Of a DNA stretch of 64,000 bases, positions 21,944 to 62,976 are shown piece by piece (within the stretch, counting starts at the first letter, position 1; every line of letters starts with the position of its first letter). A program made the translations under genes and the position numbers. Under the pieces are notes generated by a model. The model did no database searches. It had not been told where the DNA came from and saw nothing but the letters and a program-made list of their open reading frames with translations. This stretch comes from Aminobacter sp. HY435 (GTDB lineage: Bacteria > Pseudomonadota > Alphaproteobacteria > Rhizobiales > Rhizobiaceae): the NCBI RefSeq assembly GCF_027568395.1, contig NZ_JANKZL010000001.1, forward strand, positions 1 through 64,000, written 5' to 3'.

Positions 21944-21963
21944 TATCGTCCAAGCGGACGATG
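21944..21963 (+). promoter_or_regulatory. Regulon operator S1 (best palindrome)
   Basis: TATCGTCCAAGCGGACGATG contains the perfect 18-bp inverted repeat ATCGTCC-AAGC-GGACGAT (21945-21962). It stands 55 bp upstream of the LIV-type binding-protein start. It is the most symmetric member of the family of sites found across 22-63 kb and probably represents the consensus operator. Confidence 0.75.
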
Positions 21964-22018
21964 CCGGAAAAAAATGTCCGTGACTGGCTGGCGGTCGAAG
22001 TAAGCGGAGGAGATACGC

Positions 22019-23236
22019 ATGAACTTCCAATGGAATAGTTCCATTACACGTCGCCTGGCCATCGGAATGGTTTCGGTAGCTGCCCTGGCCATTTCGGCCG
22101 GCGCGTCGCAGGCTGATGAGACCATCAAGCTTGGCGGCATCATGTCGCTGACAGGTGGTGGCGCATCGATCGGCAAGACCGCCGAGGTGGGCTGGAAACT
22201 GGCTGTCGAAGACATCAATGCCGCCGGCGGTATCCTCGGCAAGAAGGTCGAGCTGGTGCTCGGCGACACCATGACCGACCCGACCCACGCGGTCAGCGAA
22301 GTGCGCCGCCTGATCGAAAACGAAAAGGTCCAGGCGCTGGTAGGCCCAGCCACCAGCCAGGAAACCATTCCGGTCGTTCCCGTCGCCACCGAAAAGGGCA
22401 TTGCCCAGGTTTCGTCGGCTGCTTCCACCCAGCTGACCCCGGAAGCAGGTCCGCTCCACTTCTCGGGCTCGGTGACCGGCCTCAACCAGATGAAGCCGAA
22501 TATCGACTACGCGCTCGACAAGCTCAAGCTCACCAAGCTCGCGCTGATTTCCGACAATGGCGGCATGTCCAAGGCAGCCGTCGCCGAGATCGTGGAATAC
22601 CTCAAGTCGCGCGGCATCGAGCCGACCGCGGTGCAGGAATTCGCCTTCCGCACCGAAGACATGACCCCGCAGCTGTTCCAGATGCGCAGCTCGGGCGCCG
22701 AAGCCATCCTGCTGATCAATTCGATCGGCGATGATTCGCGCAAGCTGCTCGAAAACCGTGCAGACATTGGTTGGGAAGTGCCGGTTCTGGCCAGCCAGAC
22801 GATGACCAACTACGCAGTCGGCAATGCCGGCGTCGTTGGCGAGGAAGCGTTCAAGGACGTCTACTCGGTGCAATTCGTCGGCATGACCTATTGCCCGAGC
22901 GACGCGGTCGGCGAATCGCCGTTCGCCAAGTTCGTCAAGCGCGCCAAGGAACAGGTCGCCGACGTGGACCGTATGGGTGGCGCGCCGGCGCTGATCCCCT
23001 ACTACATCCAGCCGATCGTTTTGGCTGCCGCCATCAATGGCGCGGGCAAGAGCGATGGCGCGGCTGTCGCAGCCTGGCTGCAGGAAAACGCCTCCAAGGT
23101 CGAAATGTTGATCGGGCCGATCCAGGCAAGCGCCACCAGCCACTTCTTGCCGGCGCCGGAGTCGATCAAGGTCGTCAAGAACGCCTACAAGCTGCGTGAA
23201 GACGGTCTGGTGGAGCGCGCCGACTGCGGCGCATAA
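22019..23236 (+). CDS. Branched-chain-amino-acid-type (LIV) ABC substrate-binding protein
   Basis: 405-aa periplasmic binding protein of the Peripla_BP_6/LivJ type. A signal peptide ends after ASQA (residue 32), and the mature protein opens DETIKLGGIMSLTGGGA. GGAGG before the ATG supports the start. It is highly similar along its whole length to the binding protein at 61693-62901 (shared TMTDPTH, VGPATSQET, LINSIGDDSRK, MTNYAVGNA), so the two are paralogues. LIV-type proteins bind amino acids but also many aromatic or alicyclic acids. No permease is adjacent. An operator of the steroid-type regulon precedes it, so a steroid-derived acid is a reasonable ligand guess. Confidence 0.92.
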   Translation: MNFQWNSSITRRLAIGMVSVAALAISAGASQADETIKLGGIMSLTGGGASIGKTAEVGWKLAVEDINAAGGILGKKVELVLGDTMTDPTHAVSEVRRLIENEKVQALVGPATSQETIPVVPVATEKGIAQVSSAASTQLTPEAGPLHFSGSVTGLNQMKPNIDYALDKLKLTKLALISDNGGMSKAAVAEIVEYLKSRGIEPTAVQEFAFRTEDMTPQLFQMRSSGAEAILLINSIGDDSRKLLENRADIGWEVPVLASQTMTNYAVGNAGVVGEEAFKDVYSVQFVGMTYCPSDAVGESPFAKFVKRAKEQVADVDRMGGAPALIPYYIQPIVLAAAINGAGKSDGAAVAAWLQENASKVEMLIGPIQASATSHFLPAPESIKVVKNAYKLREDGLVERADCGA

Positions 23237-23255
23237 GCCAGATCCCACACTGCCG

Positions 23256-23295
23256 AACGAAACGGGCCGGGTCGCAAGACCCGGCCCGTTTCGTT
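23256..23295 (+). terminator. Strong terminator hairpin after the LIV binding protein
   Basis: AACGAAACGGGCCGGGTC at 23256-23273 pairs perfectly over 18 bp with its complement at 23278-23295 around a GCAA tetraloop, 19 bp after the stop codon. The distal end is AT-rich (GTTTCGTTT). It should isolate the binding-protein gene from the LuxR-family gene. Confidence 0.85.
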
Positions 23296-23321
23296 TGCAG
23301 GTGCCCAAAACTTATCCACTG

Positions 23322-23397
23322 TTGACAGGGTGTCAAAAATTCCACGACTGTCATTTCAGATTTGACGACCTGTCAATTTAGTGACATAACTGTCGAC
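23322..23397. promoter_or_regulatory. Cluster of TTGACA-N3-TGTCAA palindromes upstream of the LuxR-family gene
   Basis: TTGACAGGGTGTCAA (23322-23336) is a perfect palindrome around GGG. TTGACGACCTGTCAA (23362-23376) repeats it with one mismatch exactly 40 bp later. A third, looser copy, GTGACATAACTGTCGAC, follows at 23381-23397. Two or three sites on the same helical face suggest cooperative binding of a dimeric regulator about 260-330 bp before the LuxR gene. The regulator is unknown; TTGACA could also serve as a -35 box. Confidence 0.5.
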
Positions 23398-23428
23398 GTT
23401 AATCATTTCGCATTCGGGAGGAAGCGCG

Positions 23429-23515
23429 ATGACGAGTTCGAGCACCGTCTGTCTCACTGCTGCGTCATCTTTCGTCCGGCACCACGTCCGACGAGGTTTC
23501 CTGCCCCCATCCTGA
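23429..23515 (+). CDS. Possible 28-residue leader ORF
   Basis: An ATG at 23429 follows GGGAGGAAGCGCG, a strong ribosome binding site, and opens a 28-codon frame (MTSSSTVCLTAASSF..., ending PPS). A GC hairpin (AGGCCGG-CCCC-CCGGCCT, 23529-23546) follows 13 bp after its stop, and the LuxR-family start lies 136 bp downstream of the stop. It could be a regulatory leader peptide or a chance ORF; no homologue is known to me. Confidence 0.3.
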   Translation: MTSSSTVCLTAASSFVRHHVRRGFLPPS

Positions 23516-23651
23516 TACGCTGACGCCTAGGCCGGCCCCCCGGCCTTCGCCAAAAGTCCAACGCATTTCATCCCATGACGCTCCGACCGGGCACCATGGG
23601 GCTGGGTCCGTACGCCTGACAGGCTGTGCGGCGGATATTGGGAGCACGACC

Positions 23652-24719
23652 TTGACCTTTCACGCCAGATCGATCGTTGAATTCGGCCATTTCCTGAACC
23701 GCGTGTCAGACAGCCTGCTCAACGGCAAGCCGCTCAGGAATTCGCTGGAACTTATCCGCGAGCAATTCGACGGCTACGCCGCGGTCCTCGTCATCGAAGA
23801 TCGCCAGCGCACCGGCGAGACCTACTATGTGTTCACCGAGATCGACGAGAACATGGCCGACGCGTCCGGCGCGGCCCTGCCCCGTTCCGCGCAGTTGACC
23901 TATCTCACCGAACGCTGCCAGCCGATGTCCGCTTCCTTGCTGACGGCGGACGAATCCGCCCGCTATACGCTGTGGGTCTTCCGCGATCGCGCCGCGGGCA
24001 AGTTCGACGATGACGCCGCATCGGTGTGTGAAATCCTGGTCTCGCAGCTGGCGAGAGGCGTGGAAACCTCATGGCGCATGGGCGCTACCGAGGTCGAGCG
24101 CACGCTTTATTCCGACGTCATGGACAAGCTCTATGTCGGCGTCGTCATCCTCGACCATTCCGGCAAGATCGTACGCGCCTCCGATGCCGCCGCTCGCTTG
24201 CTCGAAGCACGCGATGGCCTGCAGATCCAGGGCAACCGCCTGCGCGCCACCTCCGCCAAGGAGGATCGCGACTTCCAGGCGGCAGTCAAGTCGGCAATGC
24301 AGCAAGCCGACAGCAACGACGCGCCGCTCTCGCGCGGCCTGTCGCTGACCAAGCAGTCCGGCTCGCGCAATCTCGGCGTCATCGTGCGCCCCATCCACGC
24401 CGCCAAGGACAATGCCGCAGCAGCCAATTCCGCCGTCGCCGTCTACATTCGCGACCCGGAGACCAATCCGGAAGTTGAAGGCGAACTGGTGCGCCAGCTT
24501 TTCGACTTGACCCCGGCCGAAGCCGCCGTTGCCCGCCGCCTGACCGCCGGCCTGTCGCTGGAAGATGCCGCAACCTCGCTTGACATCAGCCGCAACACGG
24601 CGCGTGCCCATCTTCGCTCGATCTTCTCGAAGAGCGGCATCACTCGCCAGACCGAGCTCGTTCGCCTTGTGCTGAACAGCGCCGTCATCCTGGGCCAGGG
24701 ACCGCGTCAGGCCGCATAG
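23652..24719 (+). CDS. LuxR-family transcriptional regulator with PAS-like middle domain
   Basis: 355-aa regulator with a TTG start, GGGAG 7 bases upstream. The N-terminal 150 residues look GAF-like (EQFDGYAAVLVIEDRQR). A PAS-like segment follows near residues 155-250 (KLYVGVVILDHSGKIVRASDAA), then a C-terminal LuxR/NarL HTH (LTPAEAAVARRLTAGLSLED, NTARAHLRSIFSKSG). No receiver phosphorylation site or AHL-binding signature is evident, so it may sense a small molecule. It follows a LIV binding-protein gene and ends at a strong terminator. A decayed relative sits next to the paralogous binding protein at 63071. It is a candidate activator of transport genes. Confidence 0.88.
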   Translation: MTFHARSIVEFGHFLNRVSDSLLNGKPLRNSLELIREQFDGYAAVLVIEDRQRTGETYYVFTEIDENMADASGAALPRSAQLTYLTERCQPMSASLLTADESARYTLWVFRDRAAGKFDDDAASVCEILVSQLARGVETSWRMGATEVERTLYSDVMDKLYVGVVILDHSGKIVRASDAAARLLEARDGLQIQGNRLRATSAKEDRDFQAAVKSAMQQADSNDAPLSRGLSLTKQSGSRNLGVIVRPIHAAKDNAAAANSAVAVYIRDPETNPEVEGELVRQLFDLTPAEAAVARRLTAGLSLEDAATSLDISRNTARAHLRSIFSKSGITRQTELVRLVLNSAVILGQGPRQAA

Positions 24720-24762
24720 GCAACGCGCGTCCGGTCACCAATCACGCATACGACCCTACTGA

Positions 24763-25971: not shown

Positions 25972-25975
25972 GTTG

Positions 25976-29854: not shown

Positions 29855-29874
29855 CATCGTCTGAATGAACTAAC
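29855..29874 (-). promoter_or_regulatory. Regulon operator S2, upstream of ipdC
   Basis: CATCGTCTGAATGAACTAAC on the plus strand; read in the direction of ipdC it is ...TTAGTTC-ATTC-AGACGATG. It matches the region-3 operator with its conserved GACGATG half nearest the gene, and lies 89 bp before the start. Confidence 0.65.
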
Positions 29875-33709: not shown

Positions 33710-33729
33710 CATCGTCCAAATGTGGGATG
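33710..33729 (-). promoter_or_regulatory. Regulon operator S3, upstream of the ipdE operon
   Basis: CATCGTCCAAATGTGGGATG on the plus strand, 113 bp before the acyl-CoA dehydrogenase start. In gene direction the GGACGATG half is proximal and the distal half is CATCCCA in place of CTAGTCC, the variant also seen at S4 and S5. Confidence 0.6.
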
Positions 33730-35997: not shown

Positions 35998-36017
35998 CAT
36001 CCTCCAAACGAACGATG
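35998..36017. promoter_or_regulatory. Regulon operator S4, between two divergent NTF2-fold genes
   Basis: CATCCTCCAAACGAACGATG lies 54 bp from the minus-strand start (35943) and 57 bp from the plus-strand start (36075), almost exactly central. It matches the variant class with CATCC at one end and ACGATG at the other (compare S3 and S5 read in reverse). Confidence 0.55.
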
Positions 36018-36595: not shown

Positions 36596-36615
36596 CATCG
36601 TCCGAACGTGGGATG
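36596..36615 (+). promoter_or_regulatory. Regulon operator S5, upstream of the SDR pair
   Basis: CATCGTCCGAACGTGGGATG, 47 bp before the SDR start at 36663. It matches S3 at 17 of 20 positions but is oriented oppositely with respect to its gene. Confidence 0.6.
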
Positions 36616-38601: not shown

Positions 38602-38615
38602 GCAGGATGGCGCGT

Positions 38616-39353
38616 ATGGCACAAACGGACGGTGGTATTGGCGCGGACACACTGGATCGCGACGGCTCGGTGCGCGCGGCGACCAACCCGCGCAAGGAGC
38701 TGGTTCGCGAGCAACTGATCGACATTGCCGCCGAGCTGTTCGACAGCAAGGGCTACGTCCAGACCAGCATCAACGACATCGCCCAGGCACTCGGCCTCGG
38801 CCGTTCTGCCGTCTACCACTACTTCCGCAACAAGGAAGAGATGCTGGCGGCACTGGTCGAATCCGAGGCGCTGACGCCTTCGAACAGGCTGCAGGAATTG
38901 ATGGCCGAGCCCGGTCTGTCGCCATCGGAACGCATCCGCCGGGCAGTGGTTGACGGCATCGTGCGGCGCCTGTCGTCCGGCGCGCGCTTCATCCTGTTGT
39001 CCCGGCTCGAGACGCAGATTCCGGAAGCGCTCGGCCCCCTCTACAATCAGGGTCGCCGGCACATCTACGATTTCTACGTCCGCTGCATTTCCGATGGCAT
39101 GGCGACGGGCGAGTTCCGCACGGTCGACCCCAAGGTGACTGCGTTTGCCGTGATCGGCATGGCCAACTGGACGTCTCGCTGGTACTCGCCTTCAGGCGCA
39201 AGGACGCCGACCGAGATCGGCGAGATCATCGCGGATCTCGCGCTGTCCGGCTTGCGCGCGCATGACGACCGTCCACGTGACGCCGAAGCGGTGCGCCAGA
39301 CCATTTCCGGCCTGCGCCAGCAGATCGACGAGTTGGAAAAGCTGGTAAAATAG
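38616..39353 (+). CDS. TetR-family regulator, KstR2-like
   Basis: 245-aa regulator with an N-terminal TetR HTH (SINDIAQALGLGRSAVYHYF) after a 25-residue basic tail. The ligand domain ends with WTSRWYSPSGARTPTEIGE, which resembles WVSVRWYRPGG in M. tuberculosis KstR2, the HIP-CoA-responsive repressor of C/D-ring genes (recalled sequence). The last 25 residues form an extra coiled helix (RQTISGLRQQIDELEKLVK). It lies centrally in the ipd island and is the best candidate for binding the ATCGTCC-N4-GGACGAT operators, with a CoA thioester as inducer. The start at 38616 has AGG 9 bases upstream; the ATG at 38607 is possible. Confidence 0.85.
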   Translation: MAQTDGGIGADTLDRDGSVRAATNPRKELVREQLIDIAAELFDSKGYVQTSINDIAQALGLGRSAVYHYFRNKEEMLAALVESEALTPSNRLQELMAEPGLSPSERIRRAVVDGIVRRLSSGARFILLSRLETQIPEALGPLYNQGRRHIYDFYVRCISDGMATGEFRTVDPKVTAFAVIGMANWTSRWYSPSGARTPTEIGEIIADLALSGLRAHDDRPRDAEAVRQTISGLRQQIDELEKLVK

Positions 39354-41371: not shown

Positions 41372-41391
41372 CATCGTCTGAAAAGACTAAC
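41372..41391 (-). promoter_or_regulatory. Regulon operator S6, upstream of the thiolase operon
   Basis: CATCGTCTGAAAAGACTAAC on the plus strand; the core GTCT-GAAA-AGAC is a perfect inverted repeat. It lies between the end of the ipdAB operon (41429) and the thiolase start, 128 bp from the latter, so the thiolase unit appears to have its own promoter. Confidence 0.7.
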
Positions 41392-44574: not shown

Positions 44575-45375
44575 TTACGCGGCTCGGATGCCGGGCGGGT
44601 TGCCCTTGAGCACGGTCGCGCGGATATTGTGCGGATCGAGCTTTGCGATGATCGCCAGCTGCGCCTCGGTCGGTGCGTCTGTGGTCGTCATGCCTTCCGC
44701 GCGCAGCAGCGGGAAGCCAGTCGCTTCCTGCACCTGCTCGAAGGTGACGCCCGGATGCAGCGACAGCACCTGCGGCGCATGGTCCGGGCCATTGTAGTCG
44801 AACACGCAGAGGTCGGTGATGACGCGGCCCAGCTTGACGTCGTCGGGCTTTGTGCCCTCTGGCCAGTTCTTCGCGTTGAAGCCGACGCTCGCCACCACAT
44901 CGACCTCACCCTCGACGAAGGTGCGCTTGCTGTGGTTGGGCAGGAACATCGAGTTCTTGTGGCAGAGGCTGTTGCCCGGGAAGCCACGGACGCCAAGCAT
45001 GGCGACCTTCGGCTTGTTGAAGTCGTCGCCAAGCGCCGAGATGTTGCCCTGGCCGTAGCGGTCCATCTGGACCGGCGTCACCATGGCATGGCGGCGTCCG
45101 CTCCAGACGCTGTCGAAGACGCGGTGATAGGGCATCCAGCCGGAGAATTTCGGCTTGAAGTCGCCGCGTGCGCCGAGCGGGATCGGGTCCTCGACCAGGT
45201 ATGCCTCACCGTCCGTCATCATGAGACCGGGCGCGCAGGTGAGCTTGGCCAGCCCAACCGCGAGACGCGGCAAGGGGCCGATACCGGTGGCGAGAACTTC
45301 TCCATCGTTGCGAAATGCTTCCGCACCGGCAACGATGATCAGTTCGGCAAGAGTGAATTCATTTGCAGTCGTCAT
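44575..45375 (-). CDS. ipdB: IpdB-like subunit of the steroid ring-cleaving hydrolase
   Basis: 266-aa CoA-transferase-fold beta subunit recognised as IpdB (ScdL2 in Comamonas). EFTLAELIIVAGAEAFRNDGE, GIGPLPRLAVGLAKL, DGEAYLVEDP, FVEGEVDVVASVG and GRVITDLCVFDYNG match the family. With IpdA it catalyses hydrolytic opening of the last steroid ring (COCHEA-CoA hydrolase) and is not a CoA-transferase despite its fold. It follows ipdA by 11 bp. Confidence 0.9.
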   Translation of the reverse strand: MTTANEFTLAELIIVAGAEAFRNDGEVLATGIGPLPRLAVGLAKLTCAPGLMMTDGEAYLVEDPIPLGARGDFKPKFSGWMPYHRVFDSVWSGRRHAMVTPVQMDRYGQGNISALGDDFNKPKVAMLGVRGFPGNSLCHKNSMFLPNHSKRTFVEGEVDVVASVGFNAKNWPEGTKPDDVKLGRVITDLCVFDYNGPDHAPQVLSLHPGVTFEQVQEATGFPLLRAEGMTTTDAPTEAQLAIIAKLDPHNIRATVLKGNPPGIRAA

Positions 45376-45386
45376 GTCGTATCCGA

Positions 45387-46265
45387 TCAGAAAATGGGGA
45401 GCGGCAGGGCGCGGATCTTGGCTTCACCGCCTACGCTCGCGATGTAGCTGGCCTCATCGCCCTTCACATACTCGTCAAAATAGCGCTGCCAGCCGCCCTC
45501 TTCGCCCGCCGACGCGGCATAGGCCTTCAAGTGGCCCATGTCCCAGCCATAGGCTTCGTGCGAGGCGGTCGGGTGTGCGCCGAGCGGCGCCTTGACCACG
45601 CCGCTGACAAAGCAGCGTTCGAACAGCTGCTGCTTGGCCTTGTCCGAATATTCGGCGTCGATGCGGTCGACCAGCACCTCGGTGGTGACGAACACCTTGT
45701 CCGCCGCGCGCGCAAACAGCGCGTCGAAGAACGGGTCCGGACCATCGGTCTGGGTGTTGCCCAGGCGGTCGGCACGGCTGGTGTGGATCAGGGCCACGTC
45801 GAGCTTGATTGCCGGCATCGCCAGCAGCGTCTCGCCGTCGTCGTATGGCGACTTGATCGTCTTGAAGTGCGGATTGTACTTGAGCACGTCCGAGCCGATA
45901 CCGACGCGGGTTGCGGCGAACGGCAGGTTGTGGCCGGCAGCCTGCAGGCCGAGGAGCAGGAGCCCCTCGTCGAGTTCGCTGACTTCCACCGAGCCCGCCT
46001 CACGCGCCTTGCGGAAGTAGGGCTCGATCGGCATGGCGTCGAGCGAGACGAAGCCGTAGATCAGCTTCTTGACCTTGCCGGACGCGCACAGCATGCCGAT
46101 CTCGGGGCCGCCGTAAGCAACCAGCGTCAGATCCTTCAGATCAGAGCGAAGAATCTCGCGCACGATCGCCATCGGCTTGCGCCGGGGACCCCAGCCGCCA
46201 AATCCGATCGTCATGCCGTCGCGCAACTGGGCGACGACCGATTTCAGGTCCATTTCCTTGTTCAT
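45387..46265 (-). CDS. ipdA: IpdA-like subunit of the steroid ring-cleaving hydrolase
   Basis: 292-aa CoA-transferase-fold alpha subunit closely matching M. tuberculosis IpdA (Rv3551): VAQLRDGMTIGFGGWGPRRK, PMAIVREILRSDLKDLTLV, YGGPEIGMLCASGKVKK, YGFVSLDA and SELDEGLLLLGLQAA. The Glu in DEG (residue 100 here) lies about where the catalytic Glu of IpdA is reported, by recall. The pair opens the last carbocycle of the steroid nucleus. The gene sits between a FadB-type fusion and ipdB in an operon headed by operator S7. Confidence 0.9.
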   Translation of the reverse strand: MNKEMDLKSVVAQLRDGMTIGFGGWGPRRKPMAIVREILRSDLKDLTLVAYGGPEIGMLCASGKVKKLIYGFVSLDAMPIEPYFRKAREAGSVEVSELDEGLLLLGLQAAGHNLPFAATRVGIGSDVLKYNPHFKTIKSPYDDGETLLAMPAIKLDVALIHTSRADRLGNTQTDGPDPFFDALFARAADKVFVTTEVLVDRIDAEYSDKAKQQLFERCFVSGVVKAPLGAHPTASHEAYGWDMGHLKAYAASAGEEGGWQRYFDEYVKGDEASYIASVGGEAKIRALPLPIF

Positions 46266-49501: not shown

Positions 49502-49521
49502 CATCGTCTGATGGGACTAGT
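49502..49521 (-). promoter_or_regulatory. Regulon operator S7, upstream of the ipdAB operon
   Basis: CATCGTCTGATGGGACTAGT on the plus strand, 85 bp before the MDR start. It pairs with S8, whose centre is 70 bp away, in the same divergent promoter region. Confidence 0.7.
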
Positions 49522-49571: not shown

Positions 49572-49591
49572 GCTAGTCCCTTCGGACGATG
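49572..49591 (+). promoter_or_regulatory. Regulon operator S8, upstream of the plus-strand SDR
   Basis: GCTAGTCCCTTCGGACGATG with a GTCC-N4-GGAC core, read in the direction of its gene, 51 bp before the SDR start at 49643. Confidence 0.7.
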
Positions 49592-50413: not shown

Positions 50414-50433
50414 CTTAGTCTGTGCAGACGATG
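50414..50433 (+). promoter_or_regulatory. Regulon operator S9, upstream of the acyl-CoA ligase
   Basis: CTTAGTCTGTGCAGACGATG with a GTCT-N4-AGAC core, in gene orientation, 65 bp before the ligase ATG and only 16 bp after the preceding SDR stop. Confidence 0.7.
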
Positions 50434-52139: not shown

Positions 52140-52925
52140 TCAGGCGCTCACAACGTCACCTGCGCCGCCGAAAGCGCTCCAGCCGCCGTCGACCGGCAAC
52201 ACAGTCCCGGTGATGTAGGACGCCCAGTCCGACAACAGGAACACGGCCGCCTGCGCCATCTCCTCCGGCACGGCCAATCTGCCAAGTGGCGTTCGGCGCT
52301 CCAGCAGCGTCGGATCGAACGCCTTGCGCTCGAGCAGCGCCTCGACCATCGGTGTGCGCGTATAGGCCGGTGCAATCGCATTGACGCGAATGCCATGTGG
52401 GCCCCATTCGCAGGCCAGAGTGTGCGTCAGATGGTTGATGCCGGCCTTGGCGGCAGCGTAGGCCGAACGCCTGGGGAAGCCCCCAAGTCCGACGATGGAC
52501 GACACGTTGACGATGGCGCCGCGCTTCTGCGCCAGCATCGGCCGCGATGCGGCTCGGCACATCAGGTAGGTGCCGCGCAGGTTGACGTCTACCACGCGCT
52601 GCCAGCGCTCCACCGACTGCTCGTGCACCGGCACGAGGTCGTCGCCGATGCCGGCAGAATTGAAAACGAGGTCAAGCCCGCTCAGCATGGCCATCGCCTC
52701 GCCGACCATGCGTTCGGCATCGGCTTCACTGGCGACGTCACCCTGGGTCGCGCCCACTGCTCCGGTGCGCCGTGTCGCCGGGTCGAGTTGCTCACGATTG
52801 AGGTCGGCGATGACCACGCGCGCGCCGAGATCGCCCAGCAGCCGGGCGGCCGTCTCGCCGATGCCGCTGGCACCGCCAGTGACCAGCGCCCGCCTGCCGT
52901 CGAAGCGGATCGCCGGTGCGCTCAT
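52140..52925 (-). CDS. SDR-family oxidoreductase
   Basis: 261-aa short-chain dehydrogenase, MSAPAIRFDGRRALVTGGASGIG, with NSAG for NNAG, a Ser pair in NVSSIVG and catalytic YAAAK. The start at 52925 overlaps the stop of the preceding SDR-like gene (ATGA); upstream residues in the longer frame are shadow. It is the last gene of the LIV-transporter operon, so it probably modifies the imported compound first. Confidence 0.87.
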   Translation of the reverse strand: MSAPAIRFDGRRALVTGGASGIGETAARLLGDLGARVVIADLNREQLDPATRRTGAVGATQGDVASEADAERMVGEAMAMLSGLDLVFNSAGIGDDLVPVHEQSVERWQRVVDVNLRGTYLMCRAASRPMLAQKRGAIVNVSSIVGLGGFPRRSAYAAAKAGINHLTHTLACEWGPHGIRVNAIAPAYTRTPMVEALLERKAFDPTLLERRTPLGRLAVPEEMAQAAVFLLSDWASYITGTVLPVDGGWSAFGGAGDVVSA

Positions 52926-53677
52926 GCGTCGGGATCCCCGCCGTCTTCTGCGTCCTGCCTGAAATGGAAATCCGGCTGCCACTGGTCGCGCGGCTGGACA
53001 TGCAGTTTCCAGTAGGCCTCGGCGACGAGATCGTGGTCGTAGGGCGTTCCTGCCTGCATCGTGCCATGGATGGCGACGGTCGAGACGTGGATGCCTGACG
53101 GCGAAAGCTCCTTGTCGAGCGAGTGCCCGAGGCTGCGCAGCGCCGCCTTGCCGAGGGATGTTACGCCCCATTCGATCCACGGACCGAATGCAAGCACGCC
53201 GCCGGTCAGCAGGATTGTGCCGCGACCGCGTTCGATCATCGCAGGCGCAACCGCCTGCGCCGCATGCAGCGCGCCGGCGACGTTGGTCCGGAACGCGTCG
53301 ACGACATAGTCGACGCTGGCTGCCTCGCCATGCGATTTCCAACCGTCGGCGGTGCCGTACTTCACCTCGTCGAGACGAGACGGCGTCACAAAGCGCGCCG
53401 GCTCGATGATCGCGGCATTGTAGACCAGCGCCTCCGCATTGCCGTGCTGGCTGCGGATGGCGGCATGGACGCGGTCCATGTCGTCAGGCCTGCCGGCGTC
53501 GCCTACGAAGCCGGTGACATCCAGCCCCTCGGCGCGCAAATCCTGTTCGTAGCGCGCAATCGTTTCGGCGCGGCGGCCGACGAAGGCAACGCGGTGACCT
53601 TCTCGGGCGAACTTTTTCACCAGGGCCTGGCCAAGACCAGGCCCCATGCCGATGACAACAGTCGACGGCGCGCTCAT
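52922..53677 (-). CDS. SDR-fold protein with the catalytic Tyr apparently replaced
   Basis: 251-aa SDR-fold protein, MSAPSTVVIGMGPGLGQALV. The glycine motif is GMGPGLG, and YNAA stands for NNAG. Around the active site it reads EWGVTSLGKAALRSLG: the Lys is kept, but Thr (or Val) occupies the Tyr position. This resembles the divergent SDRs annotated as short-chain dehydrogenases of unknown activity. It is coupled by ATGA overlaps to the LivHM-type permease upstream and an ordinary SDR downstream. Confidence 0.8.
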   Translation of the reverse strand: MSAPSTVVIGMGPGLGQALVKKFAREGHRVAFVGRRAETIARYEQDLRAEGLDVTGFVGDAGRPDDMDRVHAAIRSQHGNAEALVYNAAIIEPARFVTPSRLDEVKYGTADGWKSHGEAASVDYVVDAFRTNVAGALHAAQAVAPAMIERGRGTILLTGGVLAFGPWIEWGVTSLGKAALRSLGHSLDKELSPSGIHVSTVAIHGTMQAGTPYDHDLVAEAYWKLHVQPRDQWQPDFHFRQDAEDGGDPDA

Positions 53678-55611
53678 GGCGCGACTTTCGCCTTGGCCGG
53701 GGTTGCGCCTTGCGCCTTGCGCTCGGCCCGGTTCGCCAGGAATTCCTCCAGCGTGCCGATGATGCCCTTGCGCAGGAAGAGCACGCACAGGACGAAGATC
53801 ACGCCCTGGATCACCACCACCCAGGCCCCGAAGGTCGCCAGCTCACGCTGCAGCGTCACCAGGACTGCGGCGCCGACCACCGGTCCCAGCAAGGTGCCAA
53901 CGCCGCCTATGAGGGTCATCAGCAGCACATCCGCCGAGGTCATGAAGAACACGTCGGCGAGCGAGGCGAGCTGGAAGATGATCGCCTTCAACGCACCCGC
54001 GACGCCTGCCAGCATCGCCGACAGCATGAAGGCGATCAGCTTGAAGCGGTCGGTGGAGTAGCCGAGCGAGATGGCGCGCGGCTCGTTCTCGCGGATCGAC
54101 TTCAGCGTCTGGCCGAAAGGCGAATGGATGATCCGGTAGACGAAGGCGAACCCCGCCAGGAACACAGCCAGCGTGACGTAATACATGTTGAACGTATTGG
54201 AGAGGTCGATCGCGCCGAACAGCGTGCCACGCGGCACCGACTGGATACCGTCTTCGCCATGCGTCCACGGCGCCTGCACAGCGTAGAAATAGATGATCTG
54301 CGCCAGCGCCAGGGTGATCATGGCGAAATACAGGCCTTGCCGGCGGATCGCCAGCCAGCCGAACAGCGTGCCGACCGCCGTTGCCGTTGCGACGCCCATC
54401 AGGATGCAGATCTCGGTCGGCAGCCCCCAGGCGGCGGCCGCATGCGCCGTGACATAGGCCGACGAGCCATAGAATGCGGCATGACCGAAGGCGAGCAGGC
54501 CGACATAGCCGAAGATCAGATTGTAGGCCAAGGCAAACAGCGCCAGCACCAGGATCTTCATCGCCATGATGGGATAGACGACGAACGGCATCGCGAGACC
54601 GCCAACGGTGAAGATCGCGAGCCACAGGCGTCCGTTTTCAAGGAAGCTGCCCGAGCGGCCCGACGAGACGTCGGCAACGGAGTGGCTGGTGGTTTCCTTG
54701 CCGAACAGACCGGCGGGCCGGAAGATCAGAACCAGCGCCATGATGATGAAGATCACCGTTGCCGAGGCCTGCGGATAAAACACCTTGGTCAGGCCCTCGA
54801 TCACGCCCAGCATCAGGCCGGAAACGATGGCACCGAAGATCGAGCCCATGCCGCCGATGACCACCACGGCGAAGATGGTGATGATGATACCTTGGCCCAT
54901 CTGCGGGCTGACCTGGTAGATCGGCGCCGCCATCACGCCGGCGAAGCCGGCAAGCCCGACGCCAAAGGCATAGGTCAGCATGAGCAGCCGAGGCACGTTG
55001 ATGCCGAAGGCGCGGACCAGGTCCGGATTTTCGGTAGCCGCGCGCAGGTAGGAGCCCAGCTTGGTGCGCTCGACCGTGTACCAGGTGCCGAAGCAGACGA
55101 TGATTGCGGCAACGATGACCCATGCGCGGTAGATCGGCAGGAACATGAAGCCGAGATTGATGCCGCCCTTCAACGAGTCCGGAACGCCGTACATCTGGCC
55201 GGCCGCGCCGTAATAGACGTTGAAGGCGCCCTCGATCGCCATGGCGAGGCCGACGGTCAGCAGCAGACCATAGGCATGGTCGAGGTCGTAGACGCGGCGG
55301 ATGAAGATGCGCTCCATCAGCGCGCCGATGACGGCGACGACCAGAGGCACGATGACCAGCGCCCACCAGTAGCCGATGGATGGCAGGCCGAGGCCGGGGA
55401 ACAGTTCGGGCAGGCGCAGCAGATACCACGCGCCGAACGCCCCCAGCATGTACTGCGCGCCATGGACGAAGTTGCCGATGCGCAGCATGCCGAAGATGAT
55501 CGCCACGCCAAGGCTCATCATGGCGTAGAACGAGCCGTTGATGAGGCCAACGAGCAACTGGCCGAAAAGTAGTGCAGGCGGAACGCCAATCAGGTCCATC
55601 ATGGCCATCAC
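53674..55611 (-). CDS. Fused LivH-LivM-type ABC permease
   Basis: 645-aa membrane protein combining both permease subunits of a LIV-type importer in one chain. Residues 1 to about 300 match LivH (LLVGLINGSFYAMMSLGVAI). A hydrophilic linker of about 25 residues (KETTSHSVADVSSGRSGS) follows, and the remainder matches LivM (LIFGYVGLLAFGHAAFYG, SPFGQTLKSIRENEPRAISLG). Each half has about eight hydrophobic spans. It overlaps LivF upstream and an SDR-like gene downstream by 4 bp each. Co-location with SDRs and the steroid-type operator suggests import of an acidic alicyclic compound in preference to amino acids. Confidence 0.92.
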   Translation of the reverse strand: MMAMMDLIGVPPALLFGQLLVGLINGSFYAMMSLGVAIIFGMLRIGNFVHGAQYMLGAFGAWYLLRLPELFPGLGLPSIGYWWALVIVPLVVAVIGALMERIFIRRVYDLDHAYGLLLTVGLAMAIEGAFNVYYGAAGQMYGVPDSLKGGINLGFMFLPIYRAWVIVAAIIVCFGTWYTVERTKLGSYLRAATENPDLVRAFGINVPRLLMLTYAFGVGLAGFAGVMAAPIYQVSPQMGQGIIITIFAVVVIGGMGSIFGAIVSGLMLGVIEGLTKVFYPQASATVIFIIMALVLIFRPAGLFGKETTSHSVADVSSGRSGSFLENGRLWLAIFTVGGLAMPFVVYPIMAMKILVLALFALAYNLIFGYVGLLAFGHAAFYGSSAYVTAHAAAAWGLPTEICILMGVATATAVGTLFGWLAIRRQGLYFAMITLALAQIIYFYAVQAPWTHGEDGIQSVPRGTLFGAIDLSNTFNMYYVTLAVFLAGFAFVYRIIHSPFGQTLKSIRENEPRAISLGYSTDRFKLIAFMLSAMLAGVAGALKAIIFQLASLADVFFMTSADVLLMTLIGGVGTLLGPVVGAAVLVTLQRELATFGAWVVVIQGVIFVLCVLFLRKGIIGTLEEFLANRAERKAQGATPAKAKVAP

Positions 55612-56324
55612 ACCCCGAGGTAAGCTTGGATCTTGGCTTCGTTTCCGGCGAGCTCGTCGCGTTTGAAGCGCTCGACGACCTTGCCGTGGTCGACGACGAA
55701 ATGCCGGTCGGCGAGTTTCGACGCAAAACGGAAGTTCTGCTCGACCAGAAGGATGGTGAAGCCCCTCGCCTTCAGCTTTTCGAGCACAACGGCGATCTGC
55801 TTGACGATGACCGGGGCAAGGCCCTCGGTCGGCTCGTCGAAGATCAGTAGCTTGGCGCCGGTGCGCAGGATGCGGCCGATGGCCAGCATCTGCTGTTCGC
55901 CGCCCGACAGCTTGGTGCCCGGGCTCGACCAGCGCGCCTTGAGATTCGGAAACAGCTCGAGAATTTCGTCGACGCTCATGCCGCCCGGAGCGATGACCGG
56001 TGGCAGTTCGAGGTTTTCGGCCACAGACAGGCTGGAGAAGATGCCGCGCTCTTCGGGGCAGTAGGCGATGCCGCGGCGCGCAACGATTTCGGGCGCCTTC
56101 TGGGTCAGGTTTTCGCCTCGGTAGCTGATCGCGCCGGTCTTCTTGCGCACCAGCCCCATGATGCAGCGCAGGGCGGTCGTCTTGCCCGCGCCGTTGCGGC
56201 CAAGCAGGGTGACGAGCTCGCCCTCGCGGATGTCGAAGTTCATGCCGTGCAGCGCTTTGCTTTCACCGTACCAGGCATGCAGGTCGGCGATTTCGAGAAC
56301 CGTCTTGTTGTTGTTTTCAGTCAT
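55608..56324 (-). CDS. LIV-type ABC transporter ATP-binding protein (LivF-like)
   Basis: 238-aa ATPase. Walker A is LLGRNGAGKTT, the signature LSGGEQQMLAIGR and Walker B LLIFDEPTEGLAP, followed by VEQNFRFA, all typical of LivF. The ATG at 56324 overlaps the end of the LivG-like gene by 8 bp; an upstream in-frame ATG at 56351 would add nine residues inside that gene. It pairs with LivG on the fused permease. Confidence 0.93.
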   Translation of the reverse strand: MTENNNKTVLEIADLHAWYGESKALHGMNFDIREGELVTLLGRNGAGKTTALRCIMGLVRKKTGAISYRGENLTQKAPEIVARRGIAYCPEERGIFSSLSVAENLELPPVIAPGGMSVDEILELFPNLKARWSSPGTKLSGGEQQMLAIGRILRTGAKLLIFDEPTEGLAPVIVKQIAVVLEKLKARGFTILLVEQNFRFASKLADRHFVVDHGKVVERFKRDELAGNEAKIQAYLGV

Positions 56325-57084
56325 CTGCGCCACCGATGTAGGCCTCGACAACGCGCGGATCGCGCGACACGGTCTCGTAGTTGCCCTCGGCCAGCACGCG
56401 GCCTTGCGCCAGCACCGTGATGGTGTCGGAAAGGGCTGCGACGACCGACAGGTTGTGCTCGACCATCAGGATGGTGCGTTCGGCCGATACCTTGCGGATC
56501 AGTTCTGCGATGCGGTCGACATCCTCGTGGCCCATGCCGGAGGTCGGCTCGTCGAGCAGCAGCATCTCGGGATCGAGCGCCAGCGTTGTTGCGATCTCCA
56601 GCGCCCGCTTGCGCCCGTAAGGCAGGTTCACGGCAACATGGTTGCGATAGGAAAGCATTCCGACAGCGTCAAGCAACTCGTCGATGCGGTCGTTGAGTAC
56701 GCCGAGCGTGCGCTCGCTCTGCCAGAAGCGGTAGGACGTACCTGTCGGTCGCTGCAGCGCCATGCGCACGTTCTCGCGCACGCTCATGCGCGGGAACACG
56801 GCCGAGATCTGGAACGAGCGGACGAGTCCCTTGCGCGCCACCTCTTCCGGCTTCAGCGCGGTAATGTCCTCGCCGTTGTAGCGAATGGTGCCTTCGCTCG
56901 GCGCCAGGAACTTGGTGATGAGGTTGAAGGTCGTCGTCTTGCCGGCACCGTTCGGACCGATCAGGGCGTGGATGGTATTGCGACGGACCTTGAGGTCGAC
57001 GTCCTTCACGGCGGCGAAGCCGTAGAAATACCGGCTCAGCCCAGACGCCTCGATGATGTAGTCGTCCGAAGTGCCTTGTCGCAC
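56317..57084 (-). CDS. LIV-type ABC transporter ATP-binding protein (LivG-like)
   Basis: 255-aa ATPase. Walker A is IGPNGAGKTTTFNLI, the LivG-type middle insertion includes GLVRSFQISAVFPRMSV, the signature region is KRALEIATTLA (degenerate LSGGQ, as in LivG), Walker B LLLDEPTSGM, and MVEHNLSVV follows. It is located between the DUF1330 gene (50-bp gap) and livF. Confidence 0.93.
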   Translation of the reverse strand: MRQGTSDDYIIEASGLSRYFYGFAAVKDVDLKVRRNTIHALIGPNGAGKTTTFNLITKFLAPSEGTIRYNGEDITALKPEEVARKGLVRSFQISAVFPRMSVRENVRMALQRPTGTSYRFWQSERTLGVLNDRIDELLDAVGMLSYRNHVAVNLPYGRKRALEIATTLALDPEMLLLDEPTSGMGHEDVDRIAELIRKVSAERTILMVEHNLSVVAALSDTITVLAQGRVLAEGNYETVSRDPRVVEAYIGGADD

Positions 57085-57134
57085 CTTGTCCTCCCGAATG
57101 CTTTGAATGATGCGGCGATGCCGACTCGTCGGCC

Positions 57135-57419
57135 CTAGACGTCGACGAGTATGCCTCTGGCGCGAGATGCGACCTGCCTGAGCGCGACGACCTTCTGATA
57201 ATCGTCCGAGCGGTAGAAGCGGCGCGCGTCCTCGGCGCTCGTAAATTCCACCACCGAGATCGAGGCCGGCTGCCAGTCGCCTTCCAGGCTTTCGATACGG
57301 TCGCTCGACAGGACGAAACGTCCGCCCCCGCCAGCCAGGATCGGGCCCGCCACCTCGCGGTAGTGATCGTAGGCCGCCTGATCGGTGACCTCGATTTCAA
57401 AGATCAGATAGCCAGGCAA
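57135..57419 (-). CDS. DUF1330-domain protein
   Basis: 94-aa ferredoxin-like-fold protein of the DUF1330 family. The TTG start at 57419 opens LPGYLIFEIEVTDQAAYDHY with GGGAG 7 bases upstream and gives normal family length; the longer frame runs into the binding-protein stop. SISVVEFTSAEDARRFYRSDDY is the family core. Its function is unknown, and it is unusual inside a LIV-transporter operon, between the binding-protein and ATPase genes. Confidence 0.82.
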   Translation of the reverse strand: MPGYLIFEIEVTDQAAYDHYREVAGPILAGGGGRFVLSSDRIESLEGDWQPASISVVEFTSAEDARRFYRSDDYQKVVALRQVASRARGILVDV

Positions 57420-57471
57420 GGTTCGCTCCCGAATATTGCCGGGCCGCCAGACGACGGCCCGGCAACTCAAC

Positions 57472-58671
57472 TCAGCTCTTGGACAGCTTGCAGGCGCTCT
57501 TGTCGATCGAGCGGAATGCCTGGTCAGCCGGAACGGTGGTCACGACCTTGAACACGTCCTGGGCATCGGGAGCTTCGCCCGGCGCACGGACCTCCAGCAG
57601 CTGCATGTCATGCGCCAGACGGCCATTCGGCAGCAGCGTGGCGTTCTTTGCGAACAGGTCGTTGATCTTGCCTTCGCGCAACTTGGCAAGCACCGCGGTC
57701 GGCTCGTCGGTACCCGCGGCCTTGACAGCGTTCAGGTAATTGGTGGCCGCCGAATAGGCACCGGCTGCGACCCAGCCCGGCGCATTGCCGGTCTTCTTCT
57801 GCATCTCTTCCTTGAAGCGCTTGGATGCGTCGTCGGTGTTCCAGTACCAGGCGGCTGCGAACTGGATGCCCTTAAGCGCTTCGAGGCCGATGGCGCGCGC
57901 ATCCGACTGGTGCAGCACGGTCACAGCGACGCGCATGCCCTGGTCGATCAGGCCGAACTCCTGCACCTGCTTCAGCGTGTTGATCAGCTCGGGGCCGTTG
58001 ACGGTCAGCGCCAGCACCTTGGCGCCGGAAGCCTGGGCCTGCAGGATGTAGGACGAGAAGTCAGTCGAGCCGAGCGGCGCACGAACGGCGCCCAGGATCT
58101 TGCCACCCTCCTCCTCGACGGCGGCCTTCACGCTGGCTTCCATCACCTTGCCGGCTTCGTAGTCGGGCGACAGGATGAACCAGGTCTCGCCGCCGGCCTG
58201 AAGCTGGGCGCTGACGGAGGAGCGCACCTGCGAATAGGCATCATAGGCCCAGGCCATGCCGTAGCCGTTGCAATCGGCTTCCGTCATCTTGTCGGTCATC
58301 GGCGACACGAAGAAGCCGAGCTTCTTCTGCTCGCCGAGCAGCGTGTTGACGCTGAGCGCGATGGCCGAGTTGGCGACGTCGAACAGCGCGTCGACATTGT
58401 CACGCTCCAGCCACTCGCGGGCGATCGACAGCGCCACTTCCGGCTTGTTCTGATGGTCGGCTGAAACAATCTCGATCGGCTTGCCGAGCACTTCGCCGCC
58501 GAAATCCGAAATGGCGAGCTTGACGGCCTCGGTCACTTCAGTGCCGCCAAGGGCCGAGAAGGACGAGCTCTGGTCATTGAGCACGCCAAGCTTGACGCTC
58601 GGCGCGTCCTGAGCCGCAGCGGTCAGCGCGGTCGACAGCAGCAAGGCTGCCGCGAAGATGGATTTCCTCAT
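57472..58671 (-). CDS. LIV-type ABC substrate-binding protein
   Basis: 399-aa periplasmic binding protein of the Peripla_BP_6 type. The signal peptide MRKSIFAAALLLSTALTAAA is followed by a mature start near QDAPSVKLGVLNDQSSSFS. It is clearly diverged from the two close paralogues at 22019 and 61693, and resembles binding proteins for aromatic or other non-amino-acid ligands. It is the first gene of the complete LIV importer operon, with operator S10 123 bp upstream. The single Cys pair (DCNGYG and SACKLSK) could form a disulphide. Confidence 0.92.
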   Translation of the reverse strand: MRKSIFAAALLLSTALTAAAQDAPSVKLGVLNDQSSSFSALGGTEVTEAVKLAISDFGGEVLGKPIEIVSADHQNKPEVALSIAREWLERDNVDALFDVANSAIALSVNTLLGEQKKLGFFVSPMTDKMTEADCNGYGMAWAYDAYSQVRSSVSAQLQAGGETWFILSPDYEAGKVMEASVKAAVEEEGGKILGAVRAPLGSTDFSSYILQAQASGAKVLALTVNGPELINTLKQVQEFGLIDQGMRVAVTVLHQSDARAIGLEALKGIQFAAAWYWNTDDASKRFKEEMQKKTGNAPGWVAAGAYSAATNYLNAVKAAGTDEPTAVLAKLREGKINDLFAKNATLLPNGRLAHDMQLLEVRAPGEAPDAQDVFKVVTTVPADQAFRSIDKSACKLSKS

Positions 58672-58794: not shown

Positions 58795-58814
58795 CATCGT
58801 CCATGCGGACTAGC
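58795..58814 (-). promoter_or_regulatory. Regulon operator S10, upstream of the LIV importer operon
   Basis: CATCGTCCATGCGGACTAGC on the plus strand with a perfect GTCC-N4-GGAC core, 123 bp before the binding-protein start and 93 bp before the divergent GMC start. In gene orientation it serves the minus strand, but it may affect both. Confidence 0.7.
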
Positions 58815-58907
58815 GCACGTTCGTTGTCGCGCTAACGGCTGCCCGCCAAAGGCGGGCTAATTCGTTTGTAGGATGCCGGTGCAAGGCTGCCGGGCCGAGA
58901 TCGTGTC

Positions 58908-60512: not shown

Positions 60513-60514
60513 GT

Positions 60515-61551: not shown

Positions 61552-61606
61552 CGGCGCCTCCCTTGCCAGCCCAGGCGAAAAGAGTGCCGTCGCCCCGGTC
61601 GGCGCG

Positions 61607-61626
61607 CATCGTTCGATCGGGTGAGA
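61607..61626 (-). promoter_or_regulatory. Degenerate operator-like sequence upstream of the esterase
   Basis: CATCGTTCGATCGGGTGAGA, 55 bp before the esterase start, keeps the CATCGT half in the expected orientation but not the second half. It is listed as a weak candidate only. Confidence 0.3.
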
Positions 61627-61638
61627 CCTGGCAACGAA

Positions 61639-61667
61639 AGGGCGCCGCCGGAAACCGGCGACGCCCT
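61639..61667 (-). terminator. Hairpin after the LIV-type binding protein gene
   Basis: AGGGCGCCGCCGG (61639-61651) pairs with CCGGCGACGCCCT (61655-61667) around AAA with one mismatch. In the minus direction it is followed by TTTCGTT. It should terminate most transcription from the binding-protein gene. Confidence 0.65.
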
Positions 61668-61692
61668 CAGGCACGTTATGCGCCGGCGCTGC

Positions 61693-62901
61693 TTACTGCG
61701 CGCAGTCGGCGCGCTCGACGAGACCGTCCTCACGCAGCTGGTAAGGGTTCTTGACCACCTTGAGGCTCTCGACCGAAGGCAGGAAGTGGTTGTCGGCACT
61801 CGCCGCAAGCTTGCCGGTCAAAGTCTTGATCTCGCCGGCGTTTGCCTCGATCCAGGCCGCGACCGACTTGCCGTCGGTCTTGCCCGAGCCGTTCATCGCA
61901 GCTGCGAGGATAAAGGGCTGGATGTAGTAGGGTACCAGCGCCGAAGGGCCGCCCATGCGGTCGAGCTCGGCAACCTCTGCCTTGGCTTTGGCGGCGAACT
62001 TGGCGAAGTCCTTCTCGCCGAGCGCGTCGCCCGGGCAGTAGGTCATGCCTTCGAACTGCACCGAATAGACACCCTCGAACGGCTCGGTGCCGATGGTTGC
62101 GGCGTTGCCGACCGCGTAGTTGGTCATGGTCAGGCTTGCCAGCACCGGCACGTCCCAGCCGATGTCATAGCGGTTTTCCAGCATCTTGCGCGAATCGTCG
62201 CCGATCGAGTTGATCAGCAGAACAGCCTCGGCTTCGGAATTGCGCAGCGAAAACAGCTGCGGCGTCATGTCCTCGGTGCGGAAGGCGAATTCCTGCACGG
62301 CGACCGGCTCGACGCCCTTGCCCTTCATGTAGTTGACGATATCGGCGACAGCCGCTTTCGACATGCCGCCATTGTCCGAGATCAACGCCAGCTTGGTGAG
62401 CTTCAGCACGTCGAGAGCGTAGGTGATATTGGGGATCATCTGGTTCTCGCCGATCGGCGAGGTCGAGAAGTGATACGGACCGACCTGCGGCGTCAGCTGG
62501 GTAGAGGCGGCGCTGGAAATCTGGGCGATGTTGGCTTCGGTGCCGATCGGCATCAGCGGCGTTGTTTCCTGGCTGGTCGCAGGGCCGACAACCGCCTGCA
62601 CCTTTTCGCTTTCGATCAGGCGACGCATTTCGCTGACGCCGTGCGTCGGATCGGTCATTGTGTCGGCAAGGACGAGCTCGACCTTCTTGCCCAGGATGCC
62701 GCCGGAGGCATTGATATCTTCGATCGCGCGCTTCCAGGCGATCTCGGCGTTCTTGCCGATTGAAGCGCCAGCACCCGTCAGCGACATGATGCCACCGATC
62801 TTGATTGTCTCCTCGGCGTGCGCGGCAGTCGCGCCAGCCAGGGCGGTGAAGGACATCAGGGCGGCTGCGAGGGTGCGCCGGCTGCGGATGCTGGTAGTCA
62901 T
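61693..62901 (-). CDS. LIV-type ABC substrate-binding protein, paralogue of the one at 22019
   Basis: 402-aa periplasmic binding protein. The signal peptide ends after AHA (residue 29), and the mature protein begins EETIKIGGIMSLTGAGA. Near-identical blocks with the 22019 protein (GGILGKKVELVL, TMTDPTH, LALISDNGGMSKAAVA, EFAFRTEDMTPQLF, LREDGLVERADC) show recent duplication. GAGGAG lies 8 bases before the ATG. Operator S11 is 55 bp upstream, the same spacing as S1 before its paralogue. No permease is adjacent; it may share the fused LivHM system. Confidence 0.93.
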   Translation of the reverse strand: MTTSIRSRRTLAAALMSFTALAGATAAHAEETIKIGGIMSLTGAGASIGKNAEIAWKRAIEDINASGGILGKKVELVLADTMTDPTHGVSEMRRLIESEKVQAVVGPATSQETTPLMPIGTEANIAQISSAASTQLTPQVGPYHFSTSPIGENQMIPNITYALDVLKLTKLALISDNGGMSKAAVADIVNYMKGKGVEPVAVQEFAFRTEDMTPQLFSLRNSEAEAVLLINSIGDDSRKMLENRYDIGWDVPVLASLTMTNYAVGNAATIGTEPFEGVYSVQFEGMTYCPGDALGEKDFAKFAAKAKAEVAELDRMGGPSALVPYYIQPFILAAAMNGSGKTDGKSVAAWIEANAGEIKTLTGKLAASADNHFLPSVESLKVVKNPYQLREDGLVERADCAQ

Positions 62902-62956
62902 GAACTTACTCCTCGGAAATCGGAAGCCGCCCTGTCCGCCTAACGATCCGCCTCCG

Positions 62957-62976
62957 CATCGTCCATAAGGACCATT
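62957..62976 (-). promoter_or_regulatory. Regulon operator S11, upstream of the LIV-type binding protein
   Basis: CATCGTCCATAAGGACCATT on the plus strand with a perfect GTCC-N4-GGAC core, 55 bp before the start of the binding-protein gene. Confidence 0.7.

Follow-up and report, generated by a model that had tools for sequence, protein, structure and literature searches.

A stretch of 64,000 nucleotides, positions 1 to 64,000 of contig C11 (hereafter the window) in the 4.6-Mb genome of the soil bacterium Aminobacter sp. HY435 (G000), contains genes for ipd-type degradation of steroid rings C/D and for LIV-type uptake. As a preliminary description of this DNA had proposed, these genes appear to form one coordinated regulon, because they share a single operator, an imperfect 20-bp palindrome, the strict core of which is concentrated in genomes that bear the cluster. 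The sites are predicted to be bound by a LuxR-type regulator encoded in the window (23652..24719, + strand), with a PAS region (residues 153-221) and a GerE helix-turn-helix (HTH; residues 286-339), which would act as an activator; we put the probability of this reading at about 0.75. It is favoured by the orientation of the sites, their fixed distance from a putative -10 box, the absence of a -35 element, the lack of a site at most promoters of tetR, the gene of the other candidate regulator in the cluster, and the conservation of the LuxR HTH.

Operator sites in the window

All eleven sites listed in the preliminary description between 21944 and 62976 are present, and by our own gene calls the centre of each is intergenic, with intergenic DNA making up 7.4% of this interval. 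The palindrome ATCGTCC-N4-GGACGAT, allowing up to three mismatches, matches the window 21 times against 4.5 expected. In a leave-one-out test, in which the matrix excluded the site being scored, the eleven sites reached 18.6-24.1 bits, and none of the 63,926 other window positions reached any of these scores. The consensus as originally worded is exact in six of the eleven sites, five (41372, 49502, 49572, 50414 and 58795) in the form CATCGTCY-N4-RGACTAR and one (21944) as the full palindrome, but the remaining five depart from it, chiefly in the right half: 29855, 35998 and 62957 are one or two bases off, and in 33710 and 36596 the right half is a different one (GTGGGATG). We refer to sites with CATCGTCYNNNNRGACTA as class A and to those like CATCGTCCGAACGTGGGATG as class B.

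The first 20 kb had been described as devoid of clear matches, which holds for strong sites; the best match there, at 17052, reaches 15.2 bits and is more than 400 bp from any gene start. Where about 45-130 bp had been reported, the distance from site centre to the predicted start of the faced gene is about 43-133 bp, except at 35530 and 49589, where it is 7-8 bp and the start has probably been called too early. The original set missed one weaker site (58856..58875, -; 16.0 bits) and continues past 62976.

The full palindrome (21944..21963, +) lies upstream of a substrate-binding protein gene (22067, +) and occurs in the stretches of five of six congeners; in the sixth (G001), a site of this type was found on the same contig, in locus L115. 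The next site (29855..29874, +) precedes an IpdC-type operon (28692, -, with a same-strand run to 24877). Three class-B sites are located between a FadE/IpdE2-like gene (32454, -) and a short-chain dehydrogenase/reductase (SDR) gene (33810, +) at 33710..33729 (+), between 35530 (-) and 36075 (+), SnoaL/NTF2-like by reading, at 35998..36017 (+), and upstream of another SDR gene (36663, +) at 36596..36615 (+). The gene for a FadA6-like thiolase (40038, -) is preceded by 41372..41391 (+). The same-strand run from 48406 to 41429 (-; FadB-like, IpdA, IpdB, FadE-like, APH-like and SDR) is faced by 49502..49521 (+), the SDR gene 49589 (+) by 49572..49591 (-), the gene for a FadD3-like coenzyme A (CoA) ligase (50499, +) by 50414..50433 (-), and the LIV-type importer run from 57472 to 52140 (-) by 58795..58814 (+). 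The weaker site at 58856 faces a GMC oxidoreductase gene (58908, +) and has a 19.9-bit form in four of the six congeners (G002, G003, G007 and G009), and the last site (62957..62976, +) lies upstream of a substrate-binding protein gene (61693, -).

Conservation across genomes

Among 151 relatives, IpdA (E<=1e-60) was found in 13 genomes (the first set) and the LuxR protein (E<=1e-86) in exactly those 13. In all 13, six of which belong to other genera, orthologues of window genes are preceded by sites found with the matrix, so that the motif is conserved beside ipd orthologues as the preliminary description had anticipated; the orthologue of 28692 has a site in every one of them, in class-B form in G058. 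Twenty of the 151 genomes contain the strict core CATCGTCYNNNNRGACTA, with 67 copies in the 13 (2-8 each) and one copy each in 7 of the remaining 138 (Fisher p = 4e-14), and its reversed control gave four copies in all 151 genomes together. Three of the seven singletons were examined: two are intragenic and one has no nearby gene start. The core is absent from three congeners that lack a LuxR orthologue and IpdA (G005, with only a 30% homologue, G006 and G008). Equal density in unrelated regions, which had been named as the outcome that would speak against a regulon, was thus not seen with the strict core.

Loose patterns were rejected as a test because they fail to discriminate, probably because ATCGTC is common in coding DNA, and the strict core was used for this reason. 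With one mismatch, CATCGTCYNNNNRGACKA matches 145 of the 151 genomes, often equally in ipd-negative ones, and with two mismatches CATCGTCYNNNNRGACTA gives 117 matches in the window's own genome versus 70 for its reversed control. The ubiquity of such loose matches in most genomes is what one would expect of a functionless motif produced by chance or coding bias, but that explanation has a negligible probability given the leave-one-out scores, the intergenic placement, the distribution of the strict core (13/13 versus 7/138 genomes) and the conservation across genera. The motif itself is real.

A wider scan of sequence collections seeded with the LuxR alignment yielded 36 loci, 34 with a LuxR orthologue (43-90% identity) and two with a distant homologue (32-34%). 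Sites of at least 16 bits are present at all 34 orthologue loci and at neither of the two distant-homologue loci. The orthologue loci come from Aminobacter, Microvirga, Nitratireductor, Pseudaminobacter, Aquamicrobium, Aquibium, Corticibacterium, Bradyrhizobium, Devosia, Maritimibacter, Alsobacter and Oricola, and also from bins. The out-of-sample tests cover 24 of them (23 records); the other ten (L113-L116, L118, L123, L125, L133, L134 and L143) stem from first-set genomes and were excluded. Two loci, L136 and L146, lie on one contig of Bradyrhizobium sp. U87765, whose two LuxR orthologues (51% and 64%) are separated by about 18 kb.

Orientation and promoter geometry

The sites are asymmetric, with CATCGTC in one half and usually GACTA in the other. 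In every first-set site of the 28692, 40038, 50499, 61693, 71257 and 78009 orthogroups, the half proximal to the gene reads GACGATG or GACGATT or a one- or two-base variant thereof. Paired promoters, for example 48406/49589, have a separate site directed toward each gene, and sites shared by divergent genes (33710, 35998) have CATC at one end and GATG at the other. In the out-of-sample loci, 98 of 100 sites of at least 16 bits are intergenic, and 44 of the 46 asymmetric single-direction sites face the gene (p = 3e-11).

We aligned the DNA downstream of the site at 51 promoters, taken by orthogroup and genus, in which the site is on the strand opposite to a gene orthologous to the window cluster; site-gene pairs of the same orientation were excluded. 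An A is present at position +22 in 37 of the 51 (background 0.20; 0.90 bit), and no other downstream column exceeds 0.35 bit. The out-of-sample loci have the +22 A in 55 of 89 promoters (background 0.197; p = 5e-18 if the promoters were independent, which related ones are not, so that the p-values given here are optimistic) and a T at +26 in 36 of 89; the interval of four between them is that between letters two and six of a -10 box. When each orthogroup contributes a single promoter, a median of 11 out of 18 have the A (p = 1.6e-4), and the window's genome alone has the A in 8 of 12 promoters (p = 5.8e-4). No TTGACA-like hexamer is found 16-18 bp upstream of the proposed -10 box in the columns of the 51 promoters; the -35 position at normal spacing would coincide with the end of the site (ATG and three variable bases), unlike TTGACA. 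We infer that the +22 A corresponds to base -11 within a -10 box; the 20-mer would then extend from -52 to -33 around a centre at -42.5, the predicted position being that of a lux-box-like activator. The orientation and the fixed +22 A, both looked for as signs of a class II activator, hold at most promoters, with the -42.5 position predicted from sequence.

Candidate regulators

The preliminary description left the choice between the LuxR protein (23652) and a TetR protein (38616 there; 38607..39353, +, TetR_C_24, in our calls); its single shared regulon is supported, and the evidence now points to an activator of the LuxR type. The C-terminal GerE domain of this protein scores 30.8 bits against PF00196 (cut-off 23.5), and the PAS match, with 21.8 bits, is slightly below its cut-off of 22.6. 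An autoinducer-binding N-terminal domain is not among the eight Pfam families matched at E<=0.01, which comprise GerE, PAS-type and other HTH families only. An AlphaFold2 model of moderate confidence (mean predicted local distance difference test score 68.6) has an alpha/beta N-terminal part and a helical C-terminus, and its middle part looks PAS-like by reading.

Co-occurrence was rejected as a means to separate the two proteins, because both accompany the cluster: the TetR protein is found in 12 of the 13 genomes and in all but two of 22 further LuxR genomes, those missing it (G040, G543 and G545) being bins or fragmented assemblies and L136 being outside this count. In HTH conservation the two proteins differ, the mean identity to the window protein being 0.93 for the LuxR HTH versus 0.48 for the rest of the protein (30 loci), and 0.84 versus 0.65 for TetR (20 loci). 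In two Devosia genomes, identity falls to 0.62-0.68 for the TetR HTH and is 0.82-0.86 for the LuxR HTH, and sites of 22-27 bits persist. LuxR, the one protein with which the wider scan was seeded, recovers the sites on its own.

Binding of the sites by the TetR protein as a repressor, in an arrangement like that of KstR2, is unlikely in our estimate. Such a role would fit the presence of its gene within the cluster and its conservation alongside it, and palindromes are described as typical targets of TetR proteins in the excerpt of PMC4482099 considered here, yet neither a fixed orientation nor a fixed -10 spacing without a -35 element is expected of a symmetric repressor operator. KstR2 (4w97) is among the PDB relatives of the protein (E = 1.6e-12), with 13 other PDB sequences ranking ahead of it. 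A site of at least 15 bits lies upstream of tetR in 3 of 29 genomes (L151, L162 and L167, which the anchor pattern did not catch, are outside this count), but the other 26 tetR promoters have none, although in Aminobacter read-through from the site at 36596 via 37538 could supply tetR. The stronger divergence of the TetR HTH in Devosia, where strong sites persist, likewise argues against it.

Besides the near-equal co-occurrence of TetR and the mutual dependence of related promoters, several observations weigh against the LuxR reading. The luxR gene has a site within 260 bp in only one of the 13 first genomes, so that no general autoregulation is seen, and distant LuxR homologues in G395 and G475 adjoin a similar palindrome without the +22 A. 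Two of the 46 out-of-sample sites are misoriented (L128:20830, before a 36663-like SDR gene judged by its start, and L142:8433). The +22 A is missing at 22067 (0/3) and at 33810, 49589, 50499 and 58908 (0/1 each), and at the shared class-B site it is mostly absent on the 33810 side in the LuxR-seeded loci as well. Finally, in the 36663 orthogroup the stronger half of the site is distal in nine of nine genomes, the proximal end still being GATG or a variant.

This steady exception and the 33810 side keep alive a division of labour in which LuxR binds class-A sites and TetR class-B sites or both, a reading that we consider improbable, if less so than control by TetR alone. Class-B sites are grouped before 32454/33810, 35530/36075, 36663 and, in a few genomes, tetR, as such a division would have it, but their promoters have the +22 A on the 32454 side (4/4 genera) and, in L126, L128 and L145, at the 36663-type gene, and they share the CATC...GATG ends. 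Their symmetry would be explained by the fact that most of them serve two divergent genes.

A class-wide search of 385 genomes, including the window's own, found beyond its own genes only TetR and LuxR homologues of 30-40% identity, in different genomes; matrix matches of at least 14 occur beside them at only two of 13 loci (L091 and L092), without the +22 A. At these two loci (L091 1024 and L092 2690), a CATACTCCGAACGGACCATG-like palindrome is located between a distant LuxR homologue (35%) and a gene for a hydrolase related to 60604.

The window also contains the remnant of a second LuxR-type gene (63071-63505, -, and 62976-63071), which matches residues 1-82 of a 340-residue gene call in a congener. 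The HTH of this LuxR2, a flavin-reductase-like gene and a gene for a 378-aa protein (MIYEAQ..., luciferase-like by reading), which are all found in G002, gave no match in the searched stretch. LuxR2 was rejected as the binder in this genome because only these 82 residues match and the sites are intact.

Control of luxR

The luxR promoter carries a conserved element of its own, TTTGACGACCTGTCAATTTAGTGACA (23361..23386, +; one copy per genome), with a second TTGAC-N5-GTCAA palindrome 40 bp upstream of it (23322..23336, +). In a dyad search of 299 intergenic pieces with the operator sites masked, TTGAC-N5-GTCAA tied for first place with one GC-rich dyad (7 pieces each; maximum 3-5 pieces in five shuffles). 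All 14 exact matches of TTGAC-N5-GTCAA in the fetched clusters are within about 330 bp upstream of luxR. With up to two mismatches, the extended element TTTGACRNNNYGTCRAWTTARYGACA is found exactly once, at luxR, in each of the 13 LuxR genomes and also in one of the other 138 genomes. The element is embedded in an array of TTYGAC/GTCRAA half-sites spaced by about 10 bp, and it is lacking in L136, the Bradyrhizobium locus mentioned above.

This element may be a core promoter, an operator or both, and is possibly the operator of TetR, the obvious candidate for binding it, being the other regulator kept with the cluster. TTYGAC-N5-GTCRAA with fewer than two mismatches was not found in the 29 tetR upstream regions; a version with two or three mismatches, TTCGAC-N5-GTTGWC, lies at about -143 to -158 of tetR in seven of seven Aminobacter and could act as a weak auto-operator. 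The luxR element has diverged in both Devosia loci (3-4 mismatches to the shorter consensus), as has the TetR HTH there, but this co-divergence is weak because Microvirga has three mismatches and yet a conserved TetR HTH. We regard repression of luxR by TetR via 23361-23386, which would create a two-step cascade, as a proposition with slightly less than even odds.

Extent of the regulon and gene content

A matrix scan of adjoining and remote stretches revealed sites outside the training set at C11:64399 (24.2 bits), 72222 (23.3 bits) and 79006 (23.7 bits), and a site upstream of an SDR gene at C25:179773 (22.7 bits), which is also found in G001, G002, G003 and G004. The site at C27:100999, which precedes an epimerase-like operon, scores 15.6 bits here and 22.0 in Aminobacter sp. 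AP02, and an SMP-30-like gene is preceded by a site in G001, G003 and G009. The regulon is thus larger than originally stated, extending past the window and onto other contigs, and the motif gathers further genes, namely the epimerase-like operon, a second LIV importer, the SDR and the SMP-30-like gene; these names were given by reading, and the sites before the epimerase-like operon, the SDR and the SMP-30-like gene are oriented as expected. In L009 (C2), two sites 68 bp apart (6007 and 6075) have a related but distinct core, ACCGTCCG-N2-CGGACTAT, and lie between a DUF1330-like gene and the gene for an ABC substrate-binding protein (by reading). A palindrome like that of L009 stands ahead of a like gene in L140. 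These sites are perhaps targets of a paralogous regulator.

The cluster at 22 to 79 kb comprises genes of the IpdA/B, IpdC, IpdE2/FadE, FadA6, FadD3, FadB and EchA20 types, together with those for SDR and SnoaL-like proteins and LIV-type importers. Proteins from our own gene calls were annotated by NCBIfam and Pfam scans (30 and 9 proteins), and several pathway names are based on family similarity and context rather than on name-specific models. The IpdB-/IpdA-like CoA-transferase pair, a marker of ring C/D degradation, is encoded at 44575..46265 (-); its IpdA half matches CoA-transferase models, whereas the NCBIfam and Pfam scans gave no match for the IpdB half, which is named from context. 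The LIV-type unit (52140..58671, -) comprises a binding protein, two ATPases, a permease, a DUF1330 protein and two SDRs, the ATPases and SDRs being named by reading their sequence starts. The DUF1330 gene within this run (57135-57419) is retained in three other genera. Within the ipd run, an APH/ecdysteroid-kinase-like gene (42212-43282; EcKL match 1.7e-07), also conserved in three other genera, encodes a possible kinase acting on a steroid-derived intermediate.

A KshA_C scan at a low cut-off (23.3 bits) gave only weak matches (31.3 bits at most) in 7 of 16 genomes. There was no KshA_C match in the window's genome or in 8 of the 13 LuxR genomes, and the other 5 have weak ones. Its absence in the window's genome leaves room for the uptake of ring C/D intermediates rather than of whole steroids.

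Relation to known systems and implications

The proposed mechanism, which builds on the sequence features above, has the LuxR protein (23652-24719) act as a class II activator on the 20-bp imperfect palindrome centred near -42.5, where the bound protein would substitute for a -35 element. The half ending in GATG, read toward the gene, would face the activated promoter, and divergent promoters would be served by two opposed sites or one near-symmetric site. In response to an inducer that would be a pathway intermediate, LuxR would thereby turn on some twelve promoters within the window and five or more beyond it, which serve the degradation of steroid rings C/D, activation with CoA and LIV-type uptake.

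The operator presumably differs from that of KstR2, the HIP-CoA-responsive repressor, as the preliminary description had it. According to the part of a review considered here (PMC8399759), KstR1 and KstR2 of actinobacteria are TetR repressors, KstR2 governing HIP (ring C/D) degradation, and bile-acid-degrading Proteobacteria lack homologues of both, their mechanisms being largely unknown. The system described here likewise places ring C/D degradation under one regulon, but its sites look activator-type; membership in a KstR2 regulon is at best putative, and the system appears to work like a LuxR-type activator regulon.

A parallel is TeiR/TesR of Comamonas testosteroni, described in excerpts of PMC6678751 and PMC6895838 as a LuxR-type positive regulator belonging to the steroid cluster that induces steroid degradation genes, with TeiR-like genes also in Pseudomonas stutzeri Chol1 (excerpt of PMC8399759). 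Compared by description only, the clear targets in our case differ, being ring C/D and uptake genes, and the excerpts of PMC6678751 and PMC6895838 name no DNA site. The lux box, given in part of PMC7585371 as 20 nt located 42.5 nt upstream of the start, resembles the present operator, a 20-nt imperfect dyad at an inferred -42.5 paired with a GerE HTH protein. Unlike quorum-sensing LuxR proteins, however, the protein has a PAS region and an uncharacterized alpha/beta N-terminus in place of an autoinducer domain.

Another regulator of steroid degradation borne by the cluster itself is EdcR of the alphaproteobacterium Caenibius tardaugens, a TetR repressor of estrogen genes. EdcR differs from the LuxR protein in its repressor logic and in its palindrome, TnnCnnTACnAnTnGTAnnGnnA, which overlaps the -10 box (excerpt of PMC8700777). 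No description of the present operator or regulon was found in searches of the open-access literature, with subscription papers mostly outside the scope of this search.

The new part is the mechanism, that is, the orientation and spacing of the sites and the candidate activator, and the finding supplies a conserved operator, a promoter geometry, a candidate activator and a candidate upstream regulator. More tentatively than for either step taken alone, we propose a two-step circuit in which a cluster-borne TetR sensor would chiefly repress the luxR promoter via the once-per-genome 26-bp element, and the PAS-LuxR protein would activate every ring C/D and LIV-uptake promoter from -42.5, the whole serving the scavenging of hexahydroindane intermediates. 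Some hosts, including the window's genome, may lack the upstream ring A/B pathway. If this proposal is true, the two-step circuit would be new to steroid catabolism, and the hexahydroindanes scavenged by many alphaproteobacterial genera would come from other steroid degraders.

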